Shown: positions 3,645 to 15,624 of the stretch, in pieces | Layout: each line of letters starts with the position of its first letter | Numbering within the stretch: the stretch's first letter is position 1 | Assembly (NCBI GenBank): GCA_903904755.1 | Contig: CAIVDV010000060.1 | Location: 1 to 35,903, forward strand | Direction of reading: 5' to 3' | Origin: an uncultured Acidobacteriaceae bacterium | GTDB lineage: Bacteria; Acidobacteriota; Terriglobia; Terriglobales; Acidobacteriaceae | Length of the DNA: 35,903 nt | The notes under the pieces: generated by a model | The model's database searches: none | The model's input: the letters and a program-made list of their open reading frames with translations, nothing else | What the model was told of the DNA's origin: nothing | Program-made: the position numbers and the translations under genes

Positions 3645-6600
3645 ATGCGCCGCCTCGCCGCCCTCCTGGCCCTCGCCCTCAGCGCAACGCTAGCCTGCGC
3701 CCAAACCCCCACCGGCACCCTCCGCGGCACTGTGGCCGACCAGACCGGTGCCGTCATCGTCGGCGCGCGAGTCGAACTCCGCCAGCCCGAAACCTCCACC
3801 ACCCGCATCACCACAAGCGACTCCCTCGGGGCCTACGTCTTCCCTAACCTCACCCCCGGCGACTGGCAGCTCCGTGTGACCTCCCAGGGATTTGTCCCAA
3901 CCAGCCAATCCGTCGCTATCGCTGTCGCCTCAGTCCAGAACCTATCCGTCACCCTCAAGGTCGGCTCAGAGCAGGTCATCGACGAACTTGATGAGCCCTT
4001 TGCCCACAACCTTGCCACCCAGCGCATGGACTACGACACTCCCGTCCACCAGAGCATCGTCACCACCCAGGACCTCGCCACCCTCCCGCTCCCCGCCCGC
4101 AGCTTCGCCAACATCGCCTTCCTCGCTCCCGGCACTGAGCCCGTTGAGCCATCGGACCCAACCAAGGCCCGCATCACCGCCGTCTCCACCGGCGGCAGCT
4201 CCGGCCTCAACAACGAGCTCTCCGTCGACGGCGGCGACAACTCCGACGACTTCATCGGTGGCTTCCTCCAGAACTTCTCCCCCGATGCCATCAGCGAGTT
4301 CGCCATCCGCACCGCCCAGCAAGACGCGGACACCGGCGGCACCACCGCCGGCTCCATCGTCATCACCACCAAAGCCGGCACCAACACCCTCCACGGCTCG
4401 GCCGCCTTCTACGAGCGCGCCGCCCAGCTCAACGCCCGCTACCCCATCGAGAACCCCGCCCCCAACCCCAAGCAGCCCTTCAGCCGCCAAAACTACGTCG
4501 CCACCCTCGGCGGCCCCGTCATCCGCGAAAAGCTCTGGTACTTCGGCAGCTTTGAGGCCGTCCGCGAAAACGCCTCCATCGCTTACAGCCCCGCCAGCCT
4601 CACCCAGTTCAACGCCCTCGCCCAGCTCGCCGCAAGCGGCCTCATCCCCGGCGTCACCTCCATCCCCGTCCCCTCCACCGTTCCGGTCCCCTTCCGCGAC
4701 TTCTTTGACTCCGCCCGCATCGACTGGTCCCCCTCCGACCGCTCCCGCTGGATGCTCCGCGGCGCAACCGATAGCTACACCACCCACAACGCCCTCGTCC
4801 AGCAGGCCACCCTCCCCTCCACCGGCCTGCTCACCCACAACAACTACTTCTCCGCCGTCCTCTCAAACAGCTACACCTTCTCCCCCCGCATCCTCGGCAC
4901 CCTTGTCCTCAACGCCGGCGCGCTCCATCTCACCCAGTCCCGCAACGCCAACCTCGGCTTCGCCCTCGCCTTCCCCTTCAGCTCTACAGCGCTCACCGTC
5001 TCCGGCTTTGAGACATTCGGCGACAACCAGTTCGCCACCCCCATCACCTTCTTCCCCTCCCAGCGCGACCAGCAGAAGTACCAGCTCCGCTACGACCTTG
5101 ACATTACCCAGGGCCGCCACAGCATCCGCACCGGCATCAACCTCATCCACGAGCCCGTCCTCGGCGGCACCTTCCCCTCCAACTCTGAAACCCTCTATCA
5201 GCTTCCCCAGAACCCATCCGACTACCTCACCGCCCCCGCCCAGTTCACCGCCGACCTCGCCGCCAACGCCACCTCCACCACCCTCGGCGGCGGCTTCAGC
5301 CAGAACGTCCAGCGCCTCGCCGCCTACGCGCAGGATTCCTGGCACCTCAACCCCGCCCTCACCCTCACCTACGGCCTCCGCTACTCCGCCACCTACGGCC
5401 TGCTCACCGGCTCCGGGCGCTCCCAGGCACAGAATCCCGGCGTCCTCACCCTCCAGGCCCTCAATATCCCTCTGGTCGCTAAGCCCGCCGCCGATAATCG
5501 CGCCCAGCTCGCCCCCCGCTTCGGCTTCGCCTGGTCTCCCGGCCGCAGCCAGCGCACCGTCCTCCGCGGCGGCTTCGGCATCTTCCTCAACGACCTGGCA
5601 CAAACCGGCTGGGCCACCGCCCTCCAGGCCGTCAACACCGCCCCCGGCCCCTGCTCCGACCCCGCCGCCAACCCCACTGGCTCTGAGAACCTCGGCTGCG
5701 TCCCTGGCTCATCCGCTGGCGGCGCGGCCAGCATCATCGGCTCCGGCTACCGTACCCCCTACGCCATCCACATCACCGCCGGCATCCAGCAGGCCTTCTC
5801 CAGCCGCTGGCTCCTCACCGCCGACTACACCCACGAGCAGGGCAACCACGGATACCGCGCCTACTCCTACACCGGCGGTGTCAACCTCTTCACCCCCCTC
5901 CTCGCTGCTGACGACCCCGCCCAGGCCGATGTCGTCCCTGACGTCAACCTCTTCCGGTCCGACAATCGCTCCAGCTACAACGCCCTCATGCTCCACCTCC
6001 AGGGCGAAACCGGCCGCCTCTCCCTCGTCGCCAACTACACCTTCTCCAAAGCGCAAACCTGGGGCTGCGTCCTCGGCGAGCTCTTTGACTACGTCAACGG
6101 CGTCTGCGACCCCCTCAACGCCTTTGCCCCCGGCGACTACGGCCCCTCCGGCGAAGATGTCCGCCATCGCGCCGTCCTCGCAGCCCAGCTCCGCCTGCCC
6201 GCCGGCTTCCAGCTCTCCGGCATCTCCCAGGCAGAAAGCGCCCGCCCCTTCACCATCACCACCGCCGACAACTCCACACGCATCTCCGTCAACGGCCACC
6301 CCACAGCCCTCGACGCCTTCCGCGGAACCCCCTACCTCCAGACCGATCTCCGCGTCACCCGCCCCATCCACCTCGCCGAATCCATCCAGCTTGACCCCTT
6401 TGCCGAGTTCTTCAATCTCTTCAACCGCAACAACCCCGGCGCAAACTTCGTTACCAACGTCGCCGCGCTCAATGTCCCCGCCGACCAGGCCGCCTCCGGC
6501 AACGTCACCAGCCTCTGCGCCAACGCAGACTGCACCACCACCACCCCCATCACCAGCCTCCAGCAGCTCACCGTCCCCTCCGGTGGCCTCGGAGACTTCT

Positions 6601-6665
6601 TCGGCCCAGGCACCACCGTCGGCGCACCCTTCGCCGCCCAACTCGGCCTCCGCCTCACCTTTTAG
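3645..6665 (+). CDS. Oar-like TonB-dependent receptor with carboxypeptidase-regulatory domain
   Basis: The 1006-residue product is a predicted outer-membrane barrel. The start is supported by AGGAG (3634-3638), 6 bases before the ATG. A signal peptide (about residues 1-19, ending ACAQ) is followed by a carboxypeptidase-regulatory/Ig-like domain (about 22-105; GTLRGTVADQTGAVIVGARV is its hallmark). A plug-like region comes next (about 140-260, with LSVDGGDN and GSIVITTKAGTN), then a long barrel. The protein ends in phenylalanine (LGLRLTF), as outer-membrane barrels usually do. The architecture matches the Oar/Cna-B-type receptors that are expanded in Acidobacteriota. The ligand is unknown; no SusD-like partner or TonB/ExbB genes lie nearby. 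The Asp-box protein just upstream may be a functional partner, but this is only inferred from position. Confidence 0.9.
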   Translation: MRRLAALLALALSATLACAQTPTGTLRGTVADQTGAVIVGARVELRQPETSTTRITTSDSLGAYVFPNLTPGDWQLRVTSQGFVPTSQSVAIAVASVQNLSVTLKVGSEQVIDELDEPFAHNLATQRMDYDTPVHQSIVTTQDLATLPLPARSFANIAFLAPGTEPVEPSDPTKARITAVSTGGSSGLNNELSVDGGDNSDDFIGGFLQNFSPDAISEFAIRTAQQDADTGGTTAGSIVITTKAGTNTLHGSAAFYERAAQLNARYPIENPAPNPKQPFSRQNYVATLGGPVIREKLWYFGSFEAVRENASIAYSPASLTQFNALAQLAASGLIPGVTSIPVPSTVPVPFRDFFDSARIDWSPSDRSRWMLRGATDSYTTHNALVQQATLPSTGLLTHNNYFSAVLSNSYTFSPRILGTLVLNAGALHLTQSRNANLGFALAFPFSSTALTVSGFETFGDNQFATPITFFPSQRDQQKYQLRYDLDITQGRHSIRTGINLIHEPVLGGTFPSNSETLYQLPQNPSDYLTAPAQFTADLAANATSTTLGGGFSQNVQRLAAYAQDSWHLNPALTLTYGLRYSATYGLLTGSGRSQAQNPGVLTLQALNIPLVAKPAADNRAQLAPRFGFAWSPGRSQRTVLRGGFGIFLNDLAQTGWATALQAVNTAPGPCSDPAANPTGSENLGCVPGSSAGGAASIIGSGYRTPYAIHITAGIQQAFSSRWLLTADYTHEQGNHGYRAYSYTGGVNLFTPLLAADDPAQADVVPDVNLFRSDNRSSYNALMLHLQGETGRLSLVANYTFSKAQTWGCVLGELFDYVNGVCDPLNAFAPGDYGPSGEDVRHRAVLAAQLRLPAGFQLSGISQAESARPFTITTADNSTRISVNGHPTALDAFRGTPYLQTDLRVTRPIHLAESIQLDPFAEFFNLFNRNNPGANFVTNVAALNVPADQAASGNVTSLCANADCTTTTPITSLQQLTVPSGGLGDFFGPGTTVGAPFAAQLGLRLTF

Positions 6666-7942: not shown

Positions 7943-10900
7943 ATGGTTCCCACTCATTTCACTTCGCTTCCGGTTCGCCTCGGCCGTTTCCTCCTCGCCG
8001 CCGCCCTGGTTCTCACCACTGCCGCGCTCTTCCACTCCCAGCCGGCCTTTGCCCAGGCCACCAACGCTGCCGGCACCATCACCGGCACGGTCACTGATGC
8101 CAAGGGAGCCGTCATCCCCAACGCCTCGGTCACCATCACCAACACCGGCACCAACGTCGCCAAGAGCCTCACCGCAGACGGCGCAGGCTTCTACTCCGCG
8201 GGTTCGCTGGTTCCCGGTGAGTACAAAATCTCCGTCACCGCCCCCGGCTTCTCCACCACCAACCTCACCCTTACGGTGCAAATCGGCAACTCCGCCACCG
8301 GCAACGTCAAGCTCTCGGTTGGCGCTGCCAAGGAGCAGGTCGAGGTCACGGCCGATGAAGTCGCCGTCAACCAGACCCAGTCCACCGTCGGCGGCGTCCT
8401 CACTGAACAGCAGATTGATACGCTGCCCATCTCCGGCCGCAACTTCCTCGACCTCGCCCAGCTCGAGCCTGGCGTTCAGCTACAGAGCGGCGAAACCTTC
8501 GACCCCACCAAGGCGGGCTACTCCTCCATCTCCATCAACGGCGTCAATGGCCGTACCGCTCGCATCATCCTCGACGGCCAGGACATCTCCGACGAAACCG
8601 TCGGCACCACGACCTTGAACGTCAGCCAGGGTTCCATCGAAGAGTTTGAAATCTCCCGCTCTTCCCTCGACATCTCCAACGAACTCACCTCCTCCGGCGC
8701 CATCACCGTCTCCACGCGCACCGGAACCAACCGCATCCACGGCCAGGCCTTCGGCCTCTTCCGTGACCAGCGCGCCGGCGCAGCAGACGGCCCCGGCGGC
8801 ACCTCCTATCCCTTCCAGAAGAACCAGTTCGGCGGCCGCGTCGGTGGCCCCGTCCTCAAGGACAAGCTCTTCTACTTCGGTTCTGCCGAGCGCATCAAGC
8901 AGGACTCCTTCAACGCTGTTGAGGTGCCCAAGCCCTTCGAGGCTTTCAGCGGCGGCTACACCGCGCCCTTCCGTGACAGCTACGACACGGCCCGTGCCGA
9001 CTACAACGCACCTCACGGCATTCACATCTTTGCTCGCGGTTCGTACGAAGACAACCTCGACGACTCCACCTACGGCTACGGCTACTCCCGCTACGGCAAC
9101 AAGGACAACACCTGGGCCATCGCCTCCGGCGCAGACTTCCTCACCGGAAAGCTCACCAACAGCGTCCGCTGGAGCTACCTCAAGTTCCACAACCTCATCG
9201 CAGATCAGTCCGGCTCCGGCGTGCCCAACCTCGCTCCGGGCACCGAACTCTTCATCCACGGCCTCATCACCGGCCCCAACCTCCTCGCGCCCCAGCAGAC
9301 CTACCAGTCTGACAAGCAGGTCCGCTACGACGCCGGCTTTACCGTCAAAACCCACCAGATCCAGTTTGGCTTCAGCGTCAATGACATCCTCGGCGGCGGC
9401 TTCGCCAGCTTCTTCGGCTTCGCTCCTGAGCTTGCAGCCAGCTTCTCCCGCGGTCCTGTGGGCGGCGGCGATCCCACCGATCCAACCGCCTACTCCACCT
9501 CGTACATCGTTATGGGCAATGGCGAGGGCTACAACACTGAGAAGAAGAGCTTCAACAACCCCGCCGGAGGCCAGGGCGACTGGCGTCTCGGCGTCTACGT
9601 TGGCGACACCTGGAAGGTCAATCCCAGGCTCACCATCAACTACGGTATTCGCTACTCTCGCGACACCGGCCGCACCGACGCCGACCTCGGCACCATCCCC
9701 TGCTCCGACGCCATCGCCAACTTCGGCAGTCAATCTCCATGCCAGTCCGGCAACCTGCTCGACTCGCTCTCCGATGGCCTCGGTCAGCGCGTCCGCCAGC
9801 CCAACCGCGACTTCGGCCCCAAGTTCGGCTTCAACTACGACGTCAAAGGCGACGGTAAAACCATCGTCCGCGGCGGTGTCGGACTCTACTTCGAGAACAG
9901 CATCTTCAACAACGTCCTCTTCGATCGCCCCGCCAAGCTCGCCACCGGCCTCTTCTTCGGCGACGAGTATGTTCCCCGCGGATCATCCTCCATCACCCTG
10001 CCCGGTCAGGCTCCCCTCTCGTCGATTGATGGCCAATCCATCGCTTCTCTCTGGACCGAGCCCATCAGCCAGTCCTACAAGGCTTTCGCTGACCTCCAGA
10101 CTGCATACCAGGCAGCCACCAAGGCCGCCGGAGCTGCTGTCAACGGCAACTACGTCGCCAACACTCTCTGCGAAGGTCCCTGCTCGGGTCTCTCCATCTA
10201 CTACCCCGACTACCGTGTTGCTCGCTCTGTGCAGCTCAACATCGGTATCCAGCGCGAAGTGTGGAAGAACGCCGTCTTCTCCGCGGACTACATCCGCAAC
10301 ATCGGCACCCACTTCCAGCAGGCCATCGACGTCAACCATGTCGGCGATGCCCGCTACCTCAACAAGACCGCTGCCCAGAACGCCATCGCTGCCACTACCA
10401 GCGCATTTGATTGCGACGGAGGCTACTCCAGCGCCGCCATCGACTGCGCCATAGCGGGCGGGGCCATGATCAGCGACTTCGCCGGCAACGGCCTCGACTC
10501 AGGGAACGCCCTCCTCAGTGGCTATCCTGCCGCTGTCTTCGGTGCCACTCCTGATACTGGCGCTGCATTCGCCGGCCAGAACCCCCTCTGGGGCCACATG
10601 GCCGTCAACTTCCCCATGGGCCGCTCGGTTTACAACGGCCTCCAGACCAACCTCCGTCAGGGCGGACGCCTCCCCATCAAGGGCCTGGTCTCCTCCAACT
10701 TCGAAATCTCCTACACCCTCTCCCGCTTCGTCTCCTCCGGTGGTGCCGACCAGAACTTCACCCCCACCGCGACCGACAACAACAACCCGCTCGGCTTCAT
10801 CGGTCCCGCCGGAATTGACCGTACGCATCAGCTCTCCTACGGCGGCACCTTCACCTGGCTCGGCGGCATCGGCACCAGCCTCATCGGCCACTACTACTCG

Positions 10901-11494
10901 GCTCTGCCCACCACCCTCACCCTCGACAACAACGGCGATGGCCCCGGCGAAATCTTCAGCTCCGATATCACCGGTGACGGAACGACCGGCGATATCCTCC
11001 CTGGTGAAAAGGCCGGCGCGTTCATGCGCTCCGTCAAGCGCAGCAACATCAACACCGCCATCAACAACTACAACAACACCTACGCAGGCAAAATCACCCC
11101 TGCCGGTCAGGCCGTCATCAGCGCCGGCCTCTTCACGGCAAATCAGCTCACCCAGCTCGGCGCCGTCACCCGTTCCATCGCCACCGCTCCCACCAACAAC
11201 GCCGGCAACGGCAACCTGCGCACCTTCGACCTCTCGCTCAACCGCCCCACCAAGATCAAGCAGCTTGGCGAAGGCTTCTCCATTGAGCCCAGCATCAGCT
11301 TCTTCAACCTCTTCAACTTCGCCAACTTCGGCACCCTCGGCGGCAACCTTCTCGACAGCCAGCAGAGCGGTACGGTCAACGGTACAACCACCTCTCTCGA
11401 TGATCTCGGCGCAATCCGCGCCGGCAACGGCTCCGGCGTCTTCAGCCAGGGCGCTGCCCGCATCATGGAGTTCGGTCTCAAGATCAACTTCTAG
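7943..11494 (+). CDS. Oar-like TonB-dependent receptor with carboxypeptidase-regulatory domain
   Basis: The 1183-residue product is a predicted outer-membrane receptor. AGGAG (7932-7936) lies 6 bases before the ATG. A signal peptide of about 38 residues ends near QPAFAQA. It is followed by a carboxypeptidase-regulatory domain (about 44-125, with TITGTVTDAKGAVIPNASVT) and a plug region (about 150-270, with LPISGRNFLDLAQLEPGVQL and ILDGQDISD). A long barrel ends in LKINF, with the terminal phenylalanine expected of outer-membrane barrels. Lysine is written mostly as AAG and the codon choice looks somewhat more selected than in the first receptor, which may mean higher expression. No partner genes identify its substrate. 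The stop codon falls at the edge of a nested inverted repeat. Confidence 0.92.
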   Translation: MVPTHFTSLPVRLGRFLLAAALVLTTAALFHSQPAFAQATNAAGTITGTVTDAKGAVIPNASVTITNTGTNVAKSLTADGAGFYSAGSLVPGEYKISVTAPGFSTTNLTLTVQIGNSATGNVKLSVGAAKEQVEVTADEVAVNQTQSTVGGVLTEQQIDTLPISGRNFLDLAQLEPGVQLQSGETFDPTKAGYSSISINGVNGRTARIILDGQDISDETVGTTTLNVSQGSIEEFEISRSSLDISNELTSSGAITVSTRTGTNRIHGQAFGLFRDQRAGAADGPGGTSYPFQKNQFGGRVGGPVLKDKLFYFGSAERIKQDSFNAVEVPKPFEAFSGGYTAPFRDSYDTARADYNAPHGIHIFARGSYEDNLDDSTYGYGYSRYGNKDNTWAIASGADFLTGKLTNSVRWSYLKFHNLIADQSGSGVPNLAPGTELFIHGLITGPNLLAPQQTYQSDKQVRYDAGFTVKTHQIQFGFSVNDILGGGFASFFGFAPELAASFSRGPVGGGDPTDPTAYSTSYIVMGNGEGYNTEKKSFNNPAGGQGDWRLGVYVGDTWKVNPRLTINYGIRYSRDTGRTDADLGTIPCSDAIANFGSQSPCQSGNLLDSLSDGLGQRVRQPNRDFGPKFGFNYDVKGDGKTIVRGGVGLYFENSIFNNVLFDRPAKLATGLFFGDEYVPRGSSSITLPGQAPLSSIDGQSIASLWTEPISQSYKAFADLQTAYQAATKAAGAAVNGNYVANTLCEGPCSGLSIYYPDYRVARSVQLNIGIQREVWKNAVFSADYIRNIGTHFQQAIDVNHVGDARYLNKTAAQNAIAATTSAFDCDGGYSSAAIDCAIAGGAMISDFAGNGLDSGNALLSGYPAAVFGATPDTGAAFAGQNPLWGHMAVNFPMGRSVYNGLQTNLRQGGRLPIKGLVSSNFEISYTLSRFVSSGGADQNFTPTATDNNNPLGFIGPAGIDRTHQLSYGGTFTWLGGIGTSLIGHYYSALPTTLTLDNNGDGPGEIFSSDITGDGTTGDILPGEKAGAFMRSVKRSNINTAINNYNNTYAGKITPAGQAVISAGLFTANQLTQLGAVTRSIATAPTNNAGNGNLRTFDLSLNRPTKIKQLGEGFSIEPSISFFNLFNFANFGTLGGNLLDSQQSGTVNGTTTSLDDLGAIRAGNGSGVFSQGAARIMEFGLKINF

Positions 11495-11608
11495 AGCATT
11501 TTAGGAAAAGGTGTAGACCGACCAGCAGAAAATCGTGTGGCCTTTTCATCCAAGAAAGGCCACACCGAACCGATGCTGCGAGACCACAGCATTTCCTGAA
11601 ATGCGTTA
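11492..11608. repeat. Nested inverted repeat, possible MITE with TA flanks
   Basis: GCATTTTAGGAAA (11496-11508) pairs with TTTCCTGAAATGC (11592-11604) at 12 of 13 positions. Inside lies a perfect 11-bp hairpin, GTGTGGCCTTT (11535-11545) with AAAGGCCACAC (11555-11565). TA dinucleotides flank the whole at 11492-11493 and 11607-11608, as an IS630/mariner-type insertion would leave. The left TA is part of the receptor's TAG stop codon. There is no coding capacity. It could also be a complex terminator, although no T-run follows the inner stem. Confidence 0.45.
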
Positions 11609-11624
11609 ACCCTCGTGCAAACGC

Positions 11625-11658
11625 AAAAAGGGGCGAAGCCTTGTGGCTCCGCCCCTTT
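11625..11658 (-). terminator. Rho-independent terminator of rsfS
   Basis: AAAGGGGCGAAGCC (11627-11640) and GGCTCCGCCCCTTT (11645-11658) form a 14-bp stem with one mismatch and a TTGT loop. Read on the minus strand, a run of five T follows (11629-11625). It lies 19 bases past the rsfS stop codon and could also stop transcripts arriving from the receptor side. Confidence 0.8.
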
Positions 11659-11676
11659 CGCTGTCTTGCTTCCTGC

Positions 11677-12825
11677 TTACTTCTTCTTCGCCGGTGCCCC
11701 GAGTCCTTCCGGCGCTTCCGCACCGGTAACTGGCGGCTTCATTCCCAGCAAAGCCGGAGCAGATGCTCCAACCGTCTTCGACTGCGTCACCGGAGGCTTC
11801 ATACCAAGCTTCTGAGGTGCAATCGCTCCAACGTTCTTCGGTGCAGCCTTCTTCGCTGCAGGCTTCGCAGCAGCCTTCTTCAATTCGGGCTTTGCGGCGG
11901 CCTTCTTGGCAACGGCTTTCTTCGCAGGCGCCTTCTTGGCAACAGCCTTCGCCACAAGCTTCTTTGCCGGCGCCTTCTTGGCTACCGCTTTCTTCGCTGC
12001 CGGCTTTGCGGTGGCCTTCTTGGCAATAGCCTTCTTCGCGGGTGCCTTCTTCCCAACAGGTTTTGCCGCTACCTTCTTCGCAGCAGCTTTCTTCACTGCG
12101 GGCTTTGCGGCAGCCTTTTTCGCCGGGGCCTTCTTCACTGCCGGCTTCGCAGCAGCCTTCTTGGCAACGGCCTTCTTCGCCACTGCCTTCTTTGCAGCGG
12201 GCTTCGCGGCCGTTTTCTTCGCCGGTGCCTTCTTGGCAGCTACCTTCTTCACAGTGGCCTTCTTTGCCGCCTTCTTCGCGCTCTTCTTTGCGGTTTCAGC
12301 ACTCACAGTCGTTCCTCCCCCTGTTTTTGTTTTTCCCGCCGCCTTCTTCCCTGCGGCTGAGCTTGCACCCTTGGTGGCAGCCTTCTTGGCCGGCGCTTTC
12401 TTTGCTGCCGTGCCCTTCCGCACTGCCTTCGTCCGGCTCACCATCGCGGCCTTCAACTCCTCCGCAACTTCCTCCGAACTCAGCTGCCGCGCACTCTTGC
12501 GCAGCCGCTCAATGTCATAAAACGCGCGCTTCTCTGCCAGAAATACGTGAATCACAATGTCCCCATAATCCAGCAGAATCCACTCGGCCTGCCGTCGTCC
12601 TTCCACGGACTTCGCGTACACGCCAAACTCTTTCTTCAGCCGAAACTCAATCTCATCAGCAATCGCTACAGCCTGGCGGTCATTCGTCGCCGACGTAATC
12701 AAAAAATAGTCGGCCAGTCCGGCATCCGCTGCGTCCAGCGCCAGAATCTTCGTGTCTTCGCCCTTTTTGTCGTCGCACGCTGCAACGGCCGTCAAGAGCA
12801 TACGGCTTGTTTCTTCAGATACCAT
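11677..12825 (-). CDS. rsfS: Ribosome silencing factor RsfS with long histone H1-like tail
   Basis: The 382-residue protein has two parts. Residues 1-118 are a complete RsfS/Iojap domain (for example DAGLADYFLITSATNDRQAV and WILLDYGDIVIHVF), which in other bacteria binds uL14 on the 50S subunit and blocks subunit joining in starved cells. Residues 130-335 are a low-complexity basic tail of AKKA, AKKAPAKK and KPAAKKA units like eukaryotic histone H1 or bacterial Hc1-type proteins. The last 50 residues carry LGMKPPVT twice and end in PAKKK. The usual RsfS is about 110-130 residues, so the tail triples its length. The frame is unbroken. AGGAGA (12837-12842) supports the start. An internal Met128 with GGAGGAG upstream could give a free tail. 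nadD lies upstream, the classic neighbour of rsfS. Confidence is high for RsfS, while the tail's role is unknown. Confidence 0.92.
   Translation of the reverse strand: MVSEETSRMLLTAVAACDDKKGEDTKILALDAADAGLADYFLITSATNDRQAVAIADEIEFRLKKEFGVYAKSVEGRRQAEWILLDYGDIVIHVFLAEKRAFYDIERLRKSARQLSSEEVAEELKAAMVSRTKAVRKGTAAKKAPAKKAATKGASSAAGKKAAGKTKTGGGTTVSAETAKKSAKKAAKKATVKKVAAKKAPAKKTAAKPAAKKAVAKKAVAKKAAAKPAVKKAPAKKAAAKPAVKKAAAKKVAAKPVGKKAPAKKAIAKKATAKPAAKKAVAKKAPAKKLVAKAVAKKAPAKKAVAKKAAAKPELKKAAAKPAAKKAAPKNVGAIAPQKLGMKPPVTQSKTVGASAPALLGMKPPVTGAEAPEGLGAPAKKK
11830..12440 (-). repeat. Low-complexity repeats encoding Lys-Lys-Ala units
   Basis: The DNA is built of degenerate short units such as GCCTTCTTCG / GCAGCCTTCTT (plus strand) that encode AKK(A/P/V/T) on the minus strand. 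The unit length varies, so it is not a clean tandem array. The repeats may promote length change by slippage or recombination between strains. Confidence 0.75.
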
Positions 12826-12843
12826 GGATGAATTCTTCTCCTA

Positions 12844-12857
12844 ATTGTGCCCACAAT
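12844..12857. promoter_or_regulatory. Short palindrome upstream of rsfS ribosome binding site
   Basis: ATTGTG-CC-CACAAT is a perfect 6-bp inverted repeat lying 18 bases before the rsfS start and next to its ribosome binding site. It could be a small operator or an mRNA hairpin affecting translation of rsfS relative to nadD. Position is the only support. Confidence 0.25.
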
Positions 12858-12953
12858 GGCACGCACCATGTTAGCAGGTAGTCAACTCTCCGCAAGTGCA
12901 ATTCGCCGCATACGTCCAATATCCGGCATCCCCTTTCCCGTTCCCCCCCGCTA

Positions 12954-13697
12954 TCAACCCTGATACAGACCACGCTCCTCAATGTACTTCAGCACCGGCG
13001 CAGCCACCGCAAGCGCCCGCTCACCGCTTCCTGTCGTCCGCAGGCTCTCGCGCAGCGCCGTCGCGCTCACCTCGTAGTGCAAGTCAGGCATGACAAACAT
13101 CTCCGCCCACCGGCCCTCGCCATCCTCCACCCTGTACTGCGTCAGTTCCCCCAAACGTCCCGCTTCCCCGGCCGTGATCCCTTTAGGAAGTCCCTCATCC
13201 AGCCGGCCCAAATCCTCGCCCGGTCGCGCCACCACCACCAGCGTCGCCGCAAACGGAATCTCCCCCGCCTCATGCCATCGCCCCAGCAGCCGGAACGCAT
13301 CCGCCCCCATCAGCAGATACAGCTTCACCCGCCCCTCTGCCGCAATCCTGCGCAGCGAATCTATCGTGTAATTCGGCTCCCCATCGGCTCGCGGCGCATC
13401 CGCCAGTGAGACCCGGAACCCCGCCTCATCCTCAATTGCAAGCCGCGTCATCTCCACCCGGTCCGCATAGCCGGCCTGCAGCAGCGTCGTTCCATCCAAC
13501 ACCTTAAGCGGCTGCTTGCCCACCGGCACAAACAGAACCTCATCCAGCCCCAACGCCTCTTTTGCCGCCCGCGCCACTGCCAGATGCCCCAGGTGCGGCG
13601 GGTCAAAGCTCCCCCCAAAAAACGCAATCCGCCGCGTCTCCCCCACTCCCGCAACTGCTCCCGCACCCATCCCCAAAACCACTACCTCTTCCACCAC
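12954..13697 (-). CDS. nadD: Nicotinate-nucleotide adenylyltransferase NadD
   Basis: NadD transfers AMP from ATP to nicotinate mononucleotide to make deamido-NAD, a late step of NAD synthesis in the cytoplasm. The 247-residue product shows the nucleotidyltransferase motif GGSFDPPHLGH (28-38), MGAD (131-134) and the C-terminal V-S-A-T-A-L-R (211-217), the family's version of ISSTxxR. The GTG at 13697 starts one base after the stop codon of the upstream peptidase gene, which suggests translational coupling. An ATG at 13670 would remove nine non-conserved residues and is equally possible. rsfS follows 128 bases downstream, an arrangement found in many bacteria. Confidence 0.93.
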   Translation of the reverse strand: MVEEVVVLGMGAGAVAGVGETRRIAFFGGSFDPPHLGHLAVARAAKEALGLDEVLFVPVGKQPLKVLDGTTLLQAGYADRVEMTRLAIEDEAGFRVSLADAPRADGEPNYTIDSLRRIAAEGRVKLYLLMGADAFRLLGRWHEAGEIPFAATLVVVARPGEDLGRLDEGLPKGITAGEAGRLGELTQYRVEDGEGRWAEMFVMPDLHYEVSATALRESLRTTGSGERALAVAAPVLKYIEERGLYQG

Positions 13698-13698
13698 T

Positions 13699-15624
13699 CT
13701 ACGGCTTCATCAGCATCACACTGACTATCTGCCCATTCACCGTCTTGTCCGCACTGTCTGTGTACTCAATCTCAGCGCGCATTCCGTCCATCTCCTTGCA
13801 CACATTCATCTCCGCCTTCGGCTCAAACCCCAGCGCGCTCAAATCCATCTTGTGATAGTTGCTGCTGTACAGCGTCAGCGTTTTCGCCTCCCGCTTTGGC
13901 GTGTTCTTGGTTGCCGCCTTTGCCGGCACCTCAAGCTGCAACTCCATCTCCGCAGGATACGTGCATTCAATTTTGTGCACCGTGCCCGTTGCCTTGTGCT
14001 TCGGCCCACTCGGCGTCGCCACCGGATGCTTCGGCGCAGGCAAGCCCGTCACCTCCGCATTCTCAATCGGCTTGCCATTCAGTGTAACCATCACGGTTCC
14101 AGACTCAGTTCCCTGCTGCTCCTTCGCAATCGCTTGCTCCTGCTTCACCATCTCCAGCCGGTTCCGCACCGCAGCTTTCTCTGCGCCCGTTCGCGCAATC
14201 TGGCCGGCCGCCTCCAGCACGTCCGTCGCCTGGTCCAGCTTCCCTTGCATCGCCAGCACATTCGCGGCATTCACGCGATAGCTCACGTTGTGCAAGTCCA
14301 GTTGCACCGCCTGCACCAGCAGCTTGTACGCCTCATCCAGCTTCCCGCCTGGCTGCGACAAACACAGCCCCAGCAGCCCATACGCCGGCGCATATCCCGG
14401 ATTCGCCGCAATCGTCTGCCGCAGAGCCTTCTCCACCTCCGTGCTCGTCGTCCCGGATCCCTCCATCGACAACTCGGCAAAGTAGAAGTTCACCATATAG
14501 TCTTTCGACCCCAACTCCACCGCCTCGCCAAAATGCTTCTTCGCCGTCGCATGGTCGTCTGCCATCAACGCCATCAGCCCTTCCACCGCCCGGGCTTCAG
14601 CGTTCTTCGGCTCCGCTGCAATCACTCCATCCAGCAGTGCCTGCGTGTCCTTGTTCCGTCCCTCGGCCGCCATAAATCGTGCGCGTGCCAGGTCATACTC
14701 CACCTTGCTCAGCGTCTTCACATCAAACTTCGTCTCATCAATCGGCGCCGCCGCACTGTTCAGTACAAAATGCAGAAACCCCTGCTGCTGAATGTAAAAC
14801 CCAAGCGCGCTCTGCAGCTTCTTCAAATCCCCAAATGCCGAGAACGCAGCCGACACCGGATCCGTCCCCCGCCGCACCAGTTGCATATACTCGCTCAGGT
14901 GCTGCGTCCCCTGCTTCCGGTCATTGATGATCAGCATGTGCGTCAGCGCCCAGCTCTCCGCATAGAACGCTGATCCCTTGTCCTCCTGGTGGTAGTAAGG
15001 CGAGTTGCGATCCACCCGGAACAGCGTCTCCAGCGGAATCATCTGGATTTGCCGCAGATACCCCAGCTCGTTTCCGTCAATCTCGCCCACCTGCGCATCT
15101 TTGTCGTGGATCGTTGTGTTCTGAAAAAACTCCGCAACCCCCTCCGTCAGCCACAACGGCATCCAGTCCTGCGCCCCCCGATACTGCAAATGCGTGTATT
15201 CGTGATACACCGTCGCGTACGGGTGATCTCCATCCGCTTCCAGCTCCAGCAGAATGTAATTCTGGTCCTGCGCGCTCAGGAAAAGCCCAGCCAGCGAGAG
15301 CTGATTCTTCTTCAAATACTCTTCCGGCTCCATCGCCTCAAAGCTCTTCCTGTTCTTCATCGCCAGCACCAGCATCGGCGGGCCCGCATCCACATTCGCC
15401 TTCGGAAACAGTGCCTGAAACACCCATCGCATCCGCTCCAGGTTGTCCAGCACATGCCGCGCATTTTTCTCGCCGGCATCGGTCACCACGGTAAAGTGTT
15501 CGCTTGTCACCTGCACCGGCGGTTGCTCCGCAGCTCGGCCTGCACGCGACATGGCACCGCACAGCACCGCCACCGCCACCAGTCCGCACACCGTGGCTTT
15601 TGTCAGGGGTACCCGAATGGCCAT
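13699..15624 (-). CDS. Exported gluzincin-type metallopeptidase with TPR-like repeats (peptidase MA/DUF1570-like)
   Basis: The 641-residue product has an N-terminal signal peptide (about 1-32, ending GRAAE) and is probably periplasmic or secreted. A zinc-peptidase core follows: HEYTH (141-145), and 15 residues later TEGVAEF (160-166), which would supply the third ligand glutamate of a gluzincin. Residues 310-500 have helix pairs typical of TPR units. The last 130 residues (from about 515, VMVTLNGKPIENAEV) look like a small beta domain with a Lys/Pro-rich linker. AGGAGG lies 11 bases before the ATG. The gene ends one base before nadD, so the three minus-strand genes may form an operon, although a functional link to NAD synthesis or ribosome silencing is not obvious. 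The substrate is unknown. Confidence 0.82.
   Translation of the reverse strand: MAIRVPLTKATVCGLVAVAVLCGAMSRAGRAAEQPPVQVTSEHFTVVTDAGEKNARHVLDNLERMRWVFQALFPKANVDAGPPMLVLAMKNRKSFEAMEPEEYLKKNQLSLAGLFLSAQDQNYILLELEADGDHPYATVYHEYTHLQYRGAQDWMPLWLTEGVAEFFQNTTIHDKDAQVGEIDGNELGYLRQIQMIPLETLFRVDRNSPYYHQEDKGSAFYAESWALTHMLIINDRKQGTQHLSEYMQLVRRGTDPVSAAFSAFGDLKKLQSALGFYIQQQGFLHFVLNSAAAPIDETKFDVKTLSKVEYDLARARFMAAEGRNKDTQALLDGVIAAEPKNAEARAVEGLMALMADDHATAKKHFGEAVELGSKDYMVNFYFAELSMEGSGTTSTEVEKALRQTIAANPGYAPAYGLLGLCLSQPGGKLDEAYKLLVQAVQLDLHNVSYRVNAANVLAMQGKLDQATDVLEAAGQIARTGAEKAAVRNRLEMVKQEQAIAKEQQGTESGTVMVTLNGKPIENAEVTGLPAPKHPVATPSGPKHKATGTVHKIECTYPAEMELQLEVPAKAATKNTPKREAKTLTLYSSNYHKMDLSALGFEPKAEMNVCKEMDGMRAEIEYTDSADKTVNGQIVSVMLMKP

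Follow-up and report, generated by a model that had tools for sequence, protein, structure and literature searches.

Does an rsfS gene that runs on, in the same frame, into a long histone H1-like tail encode one polypeptide or two? The question is raised by a locus of an uncultured Acidobacteriaceae bacterium, in a stretch of 35,903 nucleotides that was analysed as a whole (hereafter the window).

An RsfS domain fused to a polycationic tail

The gene is one uninterrupted frame of 382 codons with an ATG start, found at 11677-12825 on the reverse strand in the open reading frame list of the window. A first-pass annotation of the locus had read it as a complete ribosome silencing factor (RsfS, residues 1-118) continued by a histone H1-like tail. 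The fusion is confirmed, the protein passing the Pfam cut-offs of both families. Residues 13-108 score 98 bits against the Pfam RsfS profile (cut-off 21.6), and the NCBIfam TIGR00090 match reaches 90.5 bits (cut-off 56.9). A profile search of the genome finds no second RsfS match. The features of the locus are the following.

11677-12825, reverse strand: rsfS gene, with the 382-residue RsfS-H1-like fusion (calculated mass 39.1 kDa) as longest product (open reading frame, Pfam and NCBIfam)
12472-12825, reverse strand: RsfS domain, residues 1-118 (Pfam, alignment of contact residues)
12412-12477, reverse strand: predicted additional helix after the RsfS fold, residues 117-138 (AlphaFold2)
11680-12471, reverse strand: Lys/Ala-rich tail, residues 119-382, net charge +71, of low confidence or unstructured past residue 138 (charge count, AlphaFold2)
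11680-11829, reverse strand: C-terminal Pro/Gly module, with GAxAPxxLGMKPPVT twice (sequence)
12838-12842, reverse strand: Shine-Dalgarno sequence (SD) AGGAG of the rsfS start, -6.9 kcal/mol (duplex energy)
12314-12321, reverse strand: embedded SD GGGGGAGG, 7 nt ahead of the internal start (duplex energy, conservation in the genus)
12304-12306, reverse strand: internal in-frame start codon GTG, codon 174 (conservation in the genus)
11677-12306, reverse strand: proposed nested gene, with a free H1-like protein of 209 residues, calculated mass 20.6 kDa and net charge +60, as predicted product
12954-13697, reverse strand: upstream gene, which we take to be nadD-like from its sequence and place (open reading frame list)
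11628-11665, no strand assigned: inverted repeat just past the rsfS stop, between convergent genes (read by eye)

The inverted repeat is a possible two-way terminator; it is absent from the output of the consensus scan. The window also holds two long frames, 3645-6665 and 7943-11494, the latter convergent with rsfS. Both have the look of TonB-type receptors, presumably with a carboxypeptidase-regulatory-like start.

RsfS blocks the joining of the 50S and 30S subunits. According to passages of PMC7125091, the RsfS of Staphylococcus aureus contacts uL14 through Glu70, Asp81 and Tyr98. Alignment with that protein gives E75, D86 and Y103 as their counterparts here, and these are invariant in both alignments made (7/7 and 23/23 rows). 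Since the RsfS fold and the uL14 contacts are kept, the domain should still act as an RsfS, in line with the view that residues 1-118 are complete.

Residues 1-118 have a net charge of -5 and a pI of 5.0, and the 264-residue tail has a net charge of +71 and a pI of 11.1. The AlphaFold2 model contains the RsfS fold, one extra helix (117-138) and no regular structure beyond; the mean pLDDT is 62 over the chain, moderate for the extra helix (66-75 for the block) and low after residue 138. The tail has tandem periods of 15, 27, 42 and 99 bases. It matches the Pfam HC2 (histone H1-like) profile with 50.7 bits (cut-off 40), best over residues 180-338, a match that is likely driven by composition. 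The NCBIfam scores fall far below their cut-offs, with 16.1 against 135 bits for Hc2 and 43.5 against 80 bits for the H1-like equivalog (Burkholderia H1-like), and the protein is therefore not filed as Hc2.

Distribution of the tail in the Acidobacteriota

Fourteen genomes of the same genus were searched besides that of the window. An RsfS match is found in 13, all of them open frames of 267-382 residues with a tail; none is found in the genome G251, which is 84% complete. Over the compared frame, one of these loci (L041) does not differ from that of Acidicapsa dinghuensis strain 4GSKX (L137), and the genus of the window, one of soil acidobacteria, is therefore called Acidicapsa. It had been considered that close relatives might lack the tail and that a frame error might be at play. 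Because 13 more genomes of the genus carry the tail, one of them traced to a named strain, such an error or an assembly artefact is ruled out.

In the family, RsfS was found in 369 of the 398 genomes sampled. The 104 loci which were translated are a non-random set: the window, the 30 top-scoring loci, the 13 same-genus matches and twice 30 loci picked from other genera. Tail length was counted from ten residues past the start of the ERL(R/W)K motif, which is feasible at 101 loci (L008 and L103 are cut by contig ends, and L069 is without the motif). The tail has a net positive charge at all 101, from +4 to +70, including 87/87 outside the genus. Its length is 134-267 residues in Acidicapsa (14 loci), 32-147 residues with a median of 79 at the other ERLR-type loci (52 loci) and 21-74 residues with a median of 35 at the ERLW-type loci (35 loci); the value counted for L022 is too long because its anchor fell inside the domain. 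At L071 and L086 (genus g41), the tail is shorter than that of the neighbours and has Ala-Val-Pro or Ala-Ile-Pro at its end in place of basic residues.

Of the 119 genomes in the phylum sample, 117 have RsfS. The loci of the 104 that lie outside the family were all translated: the median tail is 7 residues, two tails are at least 40 residues long and none is at least 60. The two longest are those of L252 (56 residues, net +6) and L256 (54 residues, net +10). The latter, from the genome G478, is a charged tail rich in Lys, Arg and Glu, and is possibly an independent case. The comparison across the Acidobacteriota that the first-pass annotation had suggested thus gives long tails in the genus, shorter ones in the family and very short ones elsewhere, so that a long basic tail on RsfS is, judged from these sequences, close to a family trait. 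The fusion and the H1-like character noted in the annotation stand, but the tail is no peculiarity of this gene: shorter basic tails occur on RsfS family-wide. The fusion itself is real and of moderate interest.

Tails of this kind occur in named records of Terriglobus, Granulicella, Edaphobacter, Silvibacterium, Terracidiphilus and Occallatibacter, among others. Of the 80 named loci, five run into contig ends (L154, L158, L174, L186 and L187). The tail of L199, from a Granulicella metagenome-assembled genome, is short and contains 3% Lys.

Several tails of the genus end in GAKPPV(V/I)K, and the other sub-clade has a module resembling (Q/E)YLxxPRSxAEMP. The tails of L041 and L042 contain a GA(Q/K)PPI(V/L)(R/K)CEDPDA block followed by more Lys and Ala, and the Pro module is thus internal there. 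In 22 genomes, GxKPPV has 19 matches, six of them at rsfS loci; the 13 others compare with 11 for a reversed control, which is no signal outside rsfS.

A separate H1-like gene beside rsfS in other genera, fused later, was also considered. Among the Lys/Arg-rich frames downstream of 61 loci (L001-L031 and L045-L074; up to about 1.4 kb, less in a few and none in L008), none was read as H1-like. Opposite-strand frames over the tail were rejected as genes and taken as a mirror of the Lys/Ala codons.

A conserved initiation signal inside the tail

The first-pass annotation pictured a single polypeptide. The fusion frame holds, but this view is probably incomplete: a ribosome-binding site and start codon, both conserved within the frame, predict a second product, a free protein comprising most of the tail. 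In the window the site reads GGGGGAGG AACGACT GTG, with an in-frame start at codon 174. It is present at 14/14 loci of the genus (the window and 13 others), with SD duplex energies of -8.4 to -11.6 kcal/mol and a spacing of 7-8 nt, and in each of these tails it is the best in-frame start-like codon.

Read codon by codon, the kept block is AAR GGA GAN, then two codons, then ATG or GTG in frame. The start codon is ATG at nine loci and GTG at five, Met and Val alternating with no other Val codon. In A. dinghuensis 4GSKX (L041/L137) the site's start is the GTG at codon 161. Nine distinct 21-mers of the site occur among the 14 loci. The window site (acagggggaggaacgactGTG) encodes TGGGTTV and has a full GGAGG: KG(D/E) has become GGG while the SD was strengthened. 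This change, together with the exclusive use of ATG and GTG, indicates that the nucleotides are conserved and not the residues. The tail around the site varies, with 31-76 residues before it and 78-209 after it.

Such a signal is rare elsewhere. No in-frame start-like codon of the 89 other family tails reaches -8 kcal/mol and four reach -6 (the last 20 codons were left out, L069 is absent, and the contig-cut L008 and L103 are included). The threshold of -8.4 is reached by none of 45 start-like codons inside the 14 RsfS domains of the genus and by 2/81 other codons of the same tails. In the 15 frames of the window taken as genes, 6 of 381 interior start-like codons reach -8.4 and none reaches -11.3; two of the 15 predicted starts of these frames reach -8.4. 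The SD of rsfS itself is weaker than the internal one at all 14 loci (-4.7 to -6.9 kcal/mol; in the window, -6.9 versus -11.3).

At 14/14 loci the internal site is folded less than the average window of its tail, but its openness is only moderate, being equalled or exceeded by 7-46% of the windows. When codons are resampled synonymously with the residues fixed, the observed SD is reached in 5-30% of draws per gene. Each gene taken singly is therefore weak, resampling was rejected as sole proof, and the case is built on conservation and on absence elsewhere. All the cases come from one genus, and the nine distinct sites are of shared ancestry: the genus rows form one clade in the tree (support 100/93), so that one gain accounts for the pattern. 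The site occurs in 11 of the named loci, all already in the genus set and hence not independent. Outside the genus, a TTG site of -8.5 kcal/mol is present at L209 (Edaphobacter lichenicola M8UP22), and L201, from another strain of this species, is without a similar one.

For the duplex energies, the anti-SD was assumed to be canonical. The canonical 16S tail was found in two of the seven genus genomes examined; the pattern was not found in the five others, the assembly of the window included, and our guess is that rRNA is absent from these assemblies. A consensus scan of 11500-13900 gave no match to a sigma-70-like promoter for the nested gene.

The fusion might be the only product, with a family-wide affinity tail that anchors RsfS to rRNA or other nucleic acid and was expanded by repeats in this genus, the internal SD being an accident of shared ancestry. 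The basic tails at all countable family loci, devoid of such an SD in the 89 tails from outside the genus, agree with this explanation, as do the tandem periods, which fit an expansion, and the weak outcome of codon resampling per gene. It accounts less well for an SD and start codon that are kept 14/14 despite changing tail lengths, and for a residue motif that changes where the nucleotide signal is kept; we regard it as unlikely while granting it some weight. Intragenic SD-like sequences have been proposed to slow ribosomes, and the stretch could accordingly be an elongation pause or a frameshift stimulator ahead of the poly-Lys run instead of a start site. However, a pause makes a start codon 7-8 nt downstream needless, yet ATG or GTG is kept at every locus of the genus, and inspection by eye reveals no consistent slippery heptamer after the site, which makes this explanation very improbable.

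Another reading concerns the target of the tail, and is therefore compatible with two products: fused or free, the tail would in starvation chiefly bind an acidic polymer, polyphosphate or another, and not DNA or rRNA. PMC9239181 reports that AlgP, which has a similar Lys/Ala/Pro tail, localises to polyphosphate granules, and that its tail binds DNA and is required for granule spacing; RsfS acts at the entry to stationary phase, according to passages of PMC7125091. On the other hand, a Lys/Ala composition by itself selects no particular polyanion. The tail may bind rRNA, DNA or polyphosphate, but a main role in binding the latter seems distinctly improbable.

Candidate products and related systems

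The preferred reading is that rsfS of Acidicapsa is a dual-product gene, which gives an RsfS-H1 fusion and a free H1-like polycation; we consider this reasonably probable. Initiation at the normal start would produce RsfS with a disordered polycationic tail. Ribosomes would also initiate at the internal SD and ATG/GTG, and most of the tail would then be made as a free H1-like protein, of 209 residues in the window and 78-209 in the genus. With its intact RsfS domain, the full-length protein would bind uL14 on the 50S subunit, and its tail would hold rRNA or other nucleic acid nearby. The free protein, translated from the same mRNA, would be a polycation that binds the nucleoid or RNA, and ribosome silencing and nucleic-acid compaction would thus be supplied together by one messenger. 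If true, ribosome silencing would be tied directly, through one gene, to the packing of nucleoid or RNA, and the annotation would conceal a whole basic protein within a housekeeping gene.

The genome of the window has one further H1-like gene (G000:C69:67744-68346; L076 1279-2109), in which a Lys/Ala tail follows an acidic head (MENIRMYAQGDSEE..ELEDEEEE). A profile search of 26 genomes places relatives in the genus and in the sister genus g9, among the matches listed. The tail contains a (K/R)(R/K)G..(L/V)A motif in 16 rows of the 18 loci scanned, among the matches listed; two of these rows appear to be one gene, and L117, L121, L129 and L130 were left out as another gene or as duplicates of a kept row. 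The Leu or Val of the motif is encoded by TTG or GTG in 16/16 rows. The Arg-Gly ahead of it is encoded by AGA or CGA followed by GGT in 15/16 rows, AGA and CGA making up 0.4% and 6.2% of the Arg codons in the genes of the window. The SD is -7.2 kcal/mol or stronger in 15 of 16 rows, the exception being the copy in the genome of the window (-4.2). Given the residues, such an SD is obtained in at most 1.5% of draws at 12 of 15 loci with the codon usage of the window, and in up to about 3% at the same 12 loci with the genes' own usage; the outliers are L118 (11%), L124 (20%) and L076 (87%). Most relatives among L111-L135 have an embedded AGAGGT or CGAGGT SD and an in-frame TTG or GTG, with rare Arg codons.

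The relatives of this second gene, a case found post hoc, seem to have a similar nested-start layout under a different head, which would make internal initiation a general route to H1-like polycations. More tentatively, rsfS might be a starvation gene for a tethered silencer and a nested free H1-like compactor, their ratio being set by competing initiation sites, and the route might be general; this wider proposal is somewhat doubtful. Searches of the open-access PMC literature brought up neither a paper on an RsfS with such a tail nor one on a nested gene of the H1-like kind, and a nested start would be new for RsfS as far as that literature shows. The first-pass annotation knew of no described role for such a tail, and none was found in these searches either.

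The window protein resembles known RsfS proteins (PF02410, TIGR00090) in its complete domain and in the three uL14-contact residues, and differs from them by its tail, which adds 264 residues and a net charge of +71; the solved RsfS chains with the best matches have 117 residues. The entries 6sj5 and 6sj6 are, we assume, S. aureus RsfS structures. With Hc2/HctB (PF07382) the tail shares Lys/Ala-rich repeats and a score above the Pfam cut-off; unlike them, it is fused to RsfS, and it scores well below the NCBIfam cut-offs for Hc2 and for the Burkholderia H1-like family.

Mycobacterial MDP1 is an HU-type protein, and its tail, unlike that of the window protein, is not on a ribosome factor. The likeness lies in its long disordered C-terminal basic region, which drives DNA compaction and growth arrest according to the abstract of PMC5974015. 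Similarly, AlgP and PhaF of Pseudomonas combine an N-terminal part with a long disordered Lys/Ala/Pro tail, but the N-terminal part differs, and the passages of PMC9239181 consulted do not mention an internal start for them. The nearest parallel in gene layout is cas8b of an archaeon, where one frame gives two proteins and the C-terminal part alone, Cas11b, arises from internal in-frame initiation with a possible SD (PMC11899642). The proteins are unrelated, and internal initiation is established by experiment there and predicted from conservation here. By analogy, we infer that the MDP1, AlgP and cas8b precedents may be united in the mechanism proposed for rsfS.
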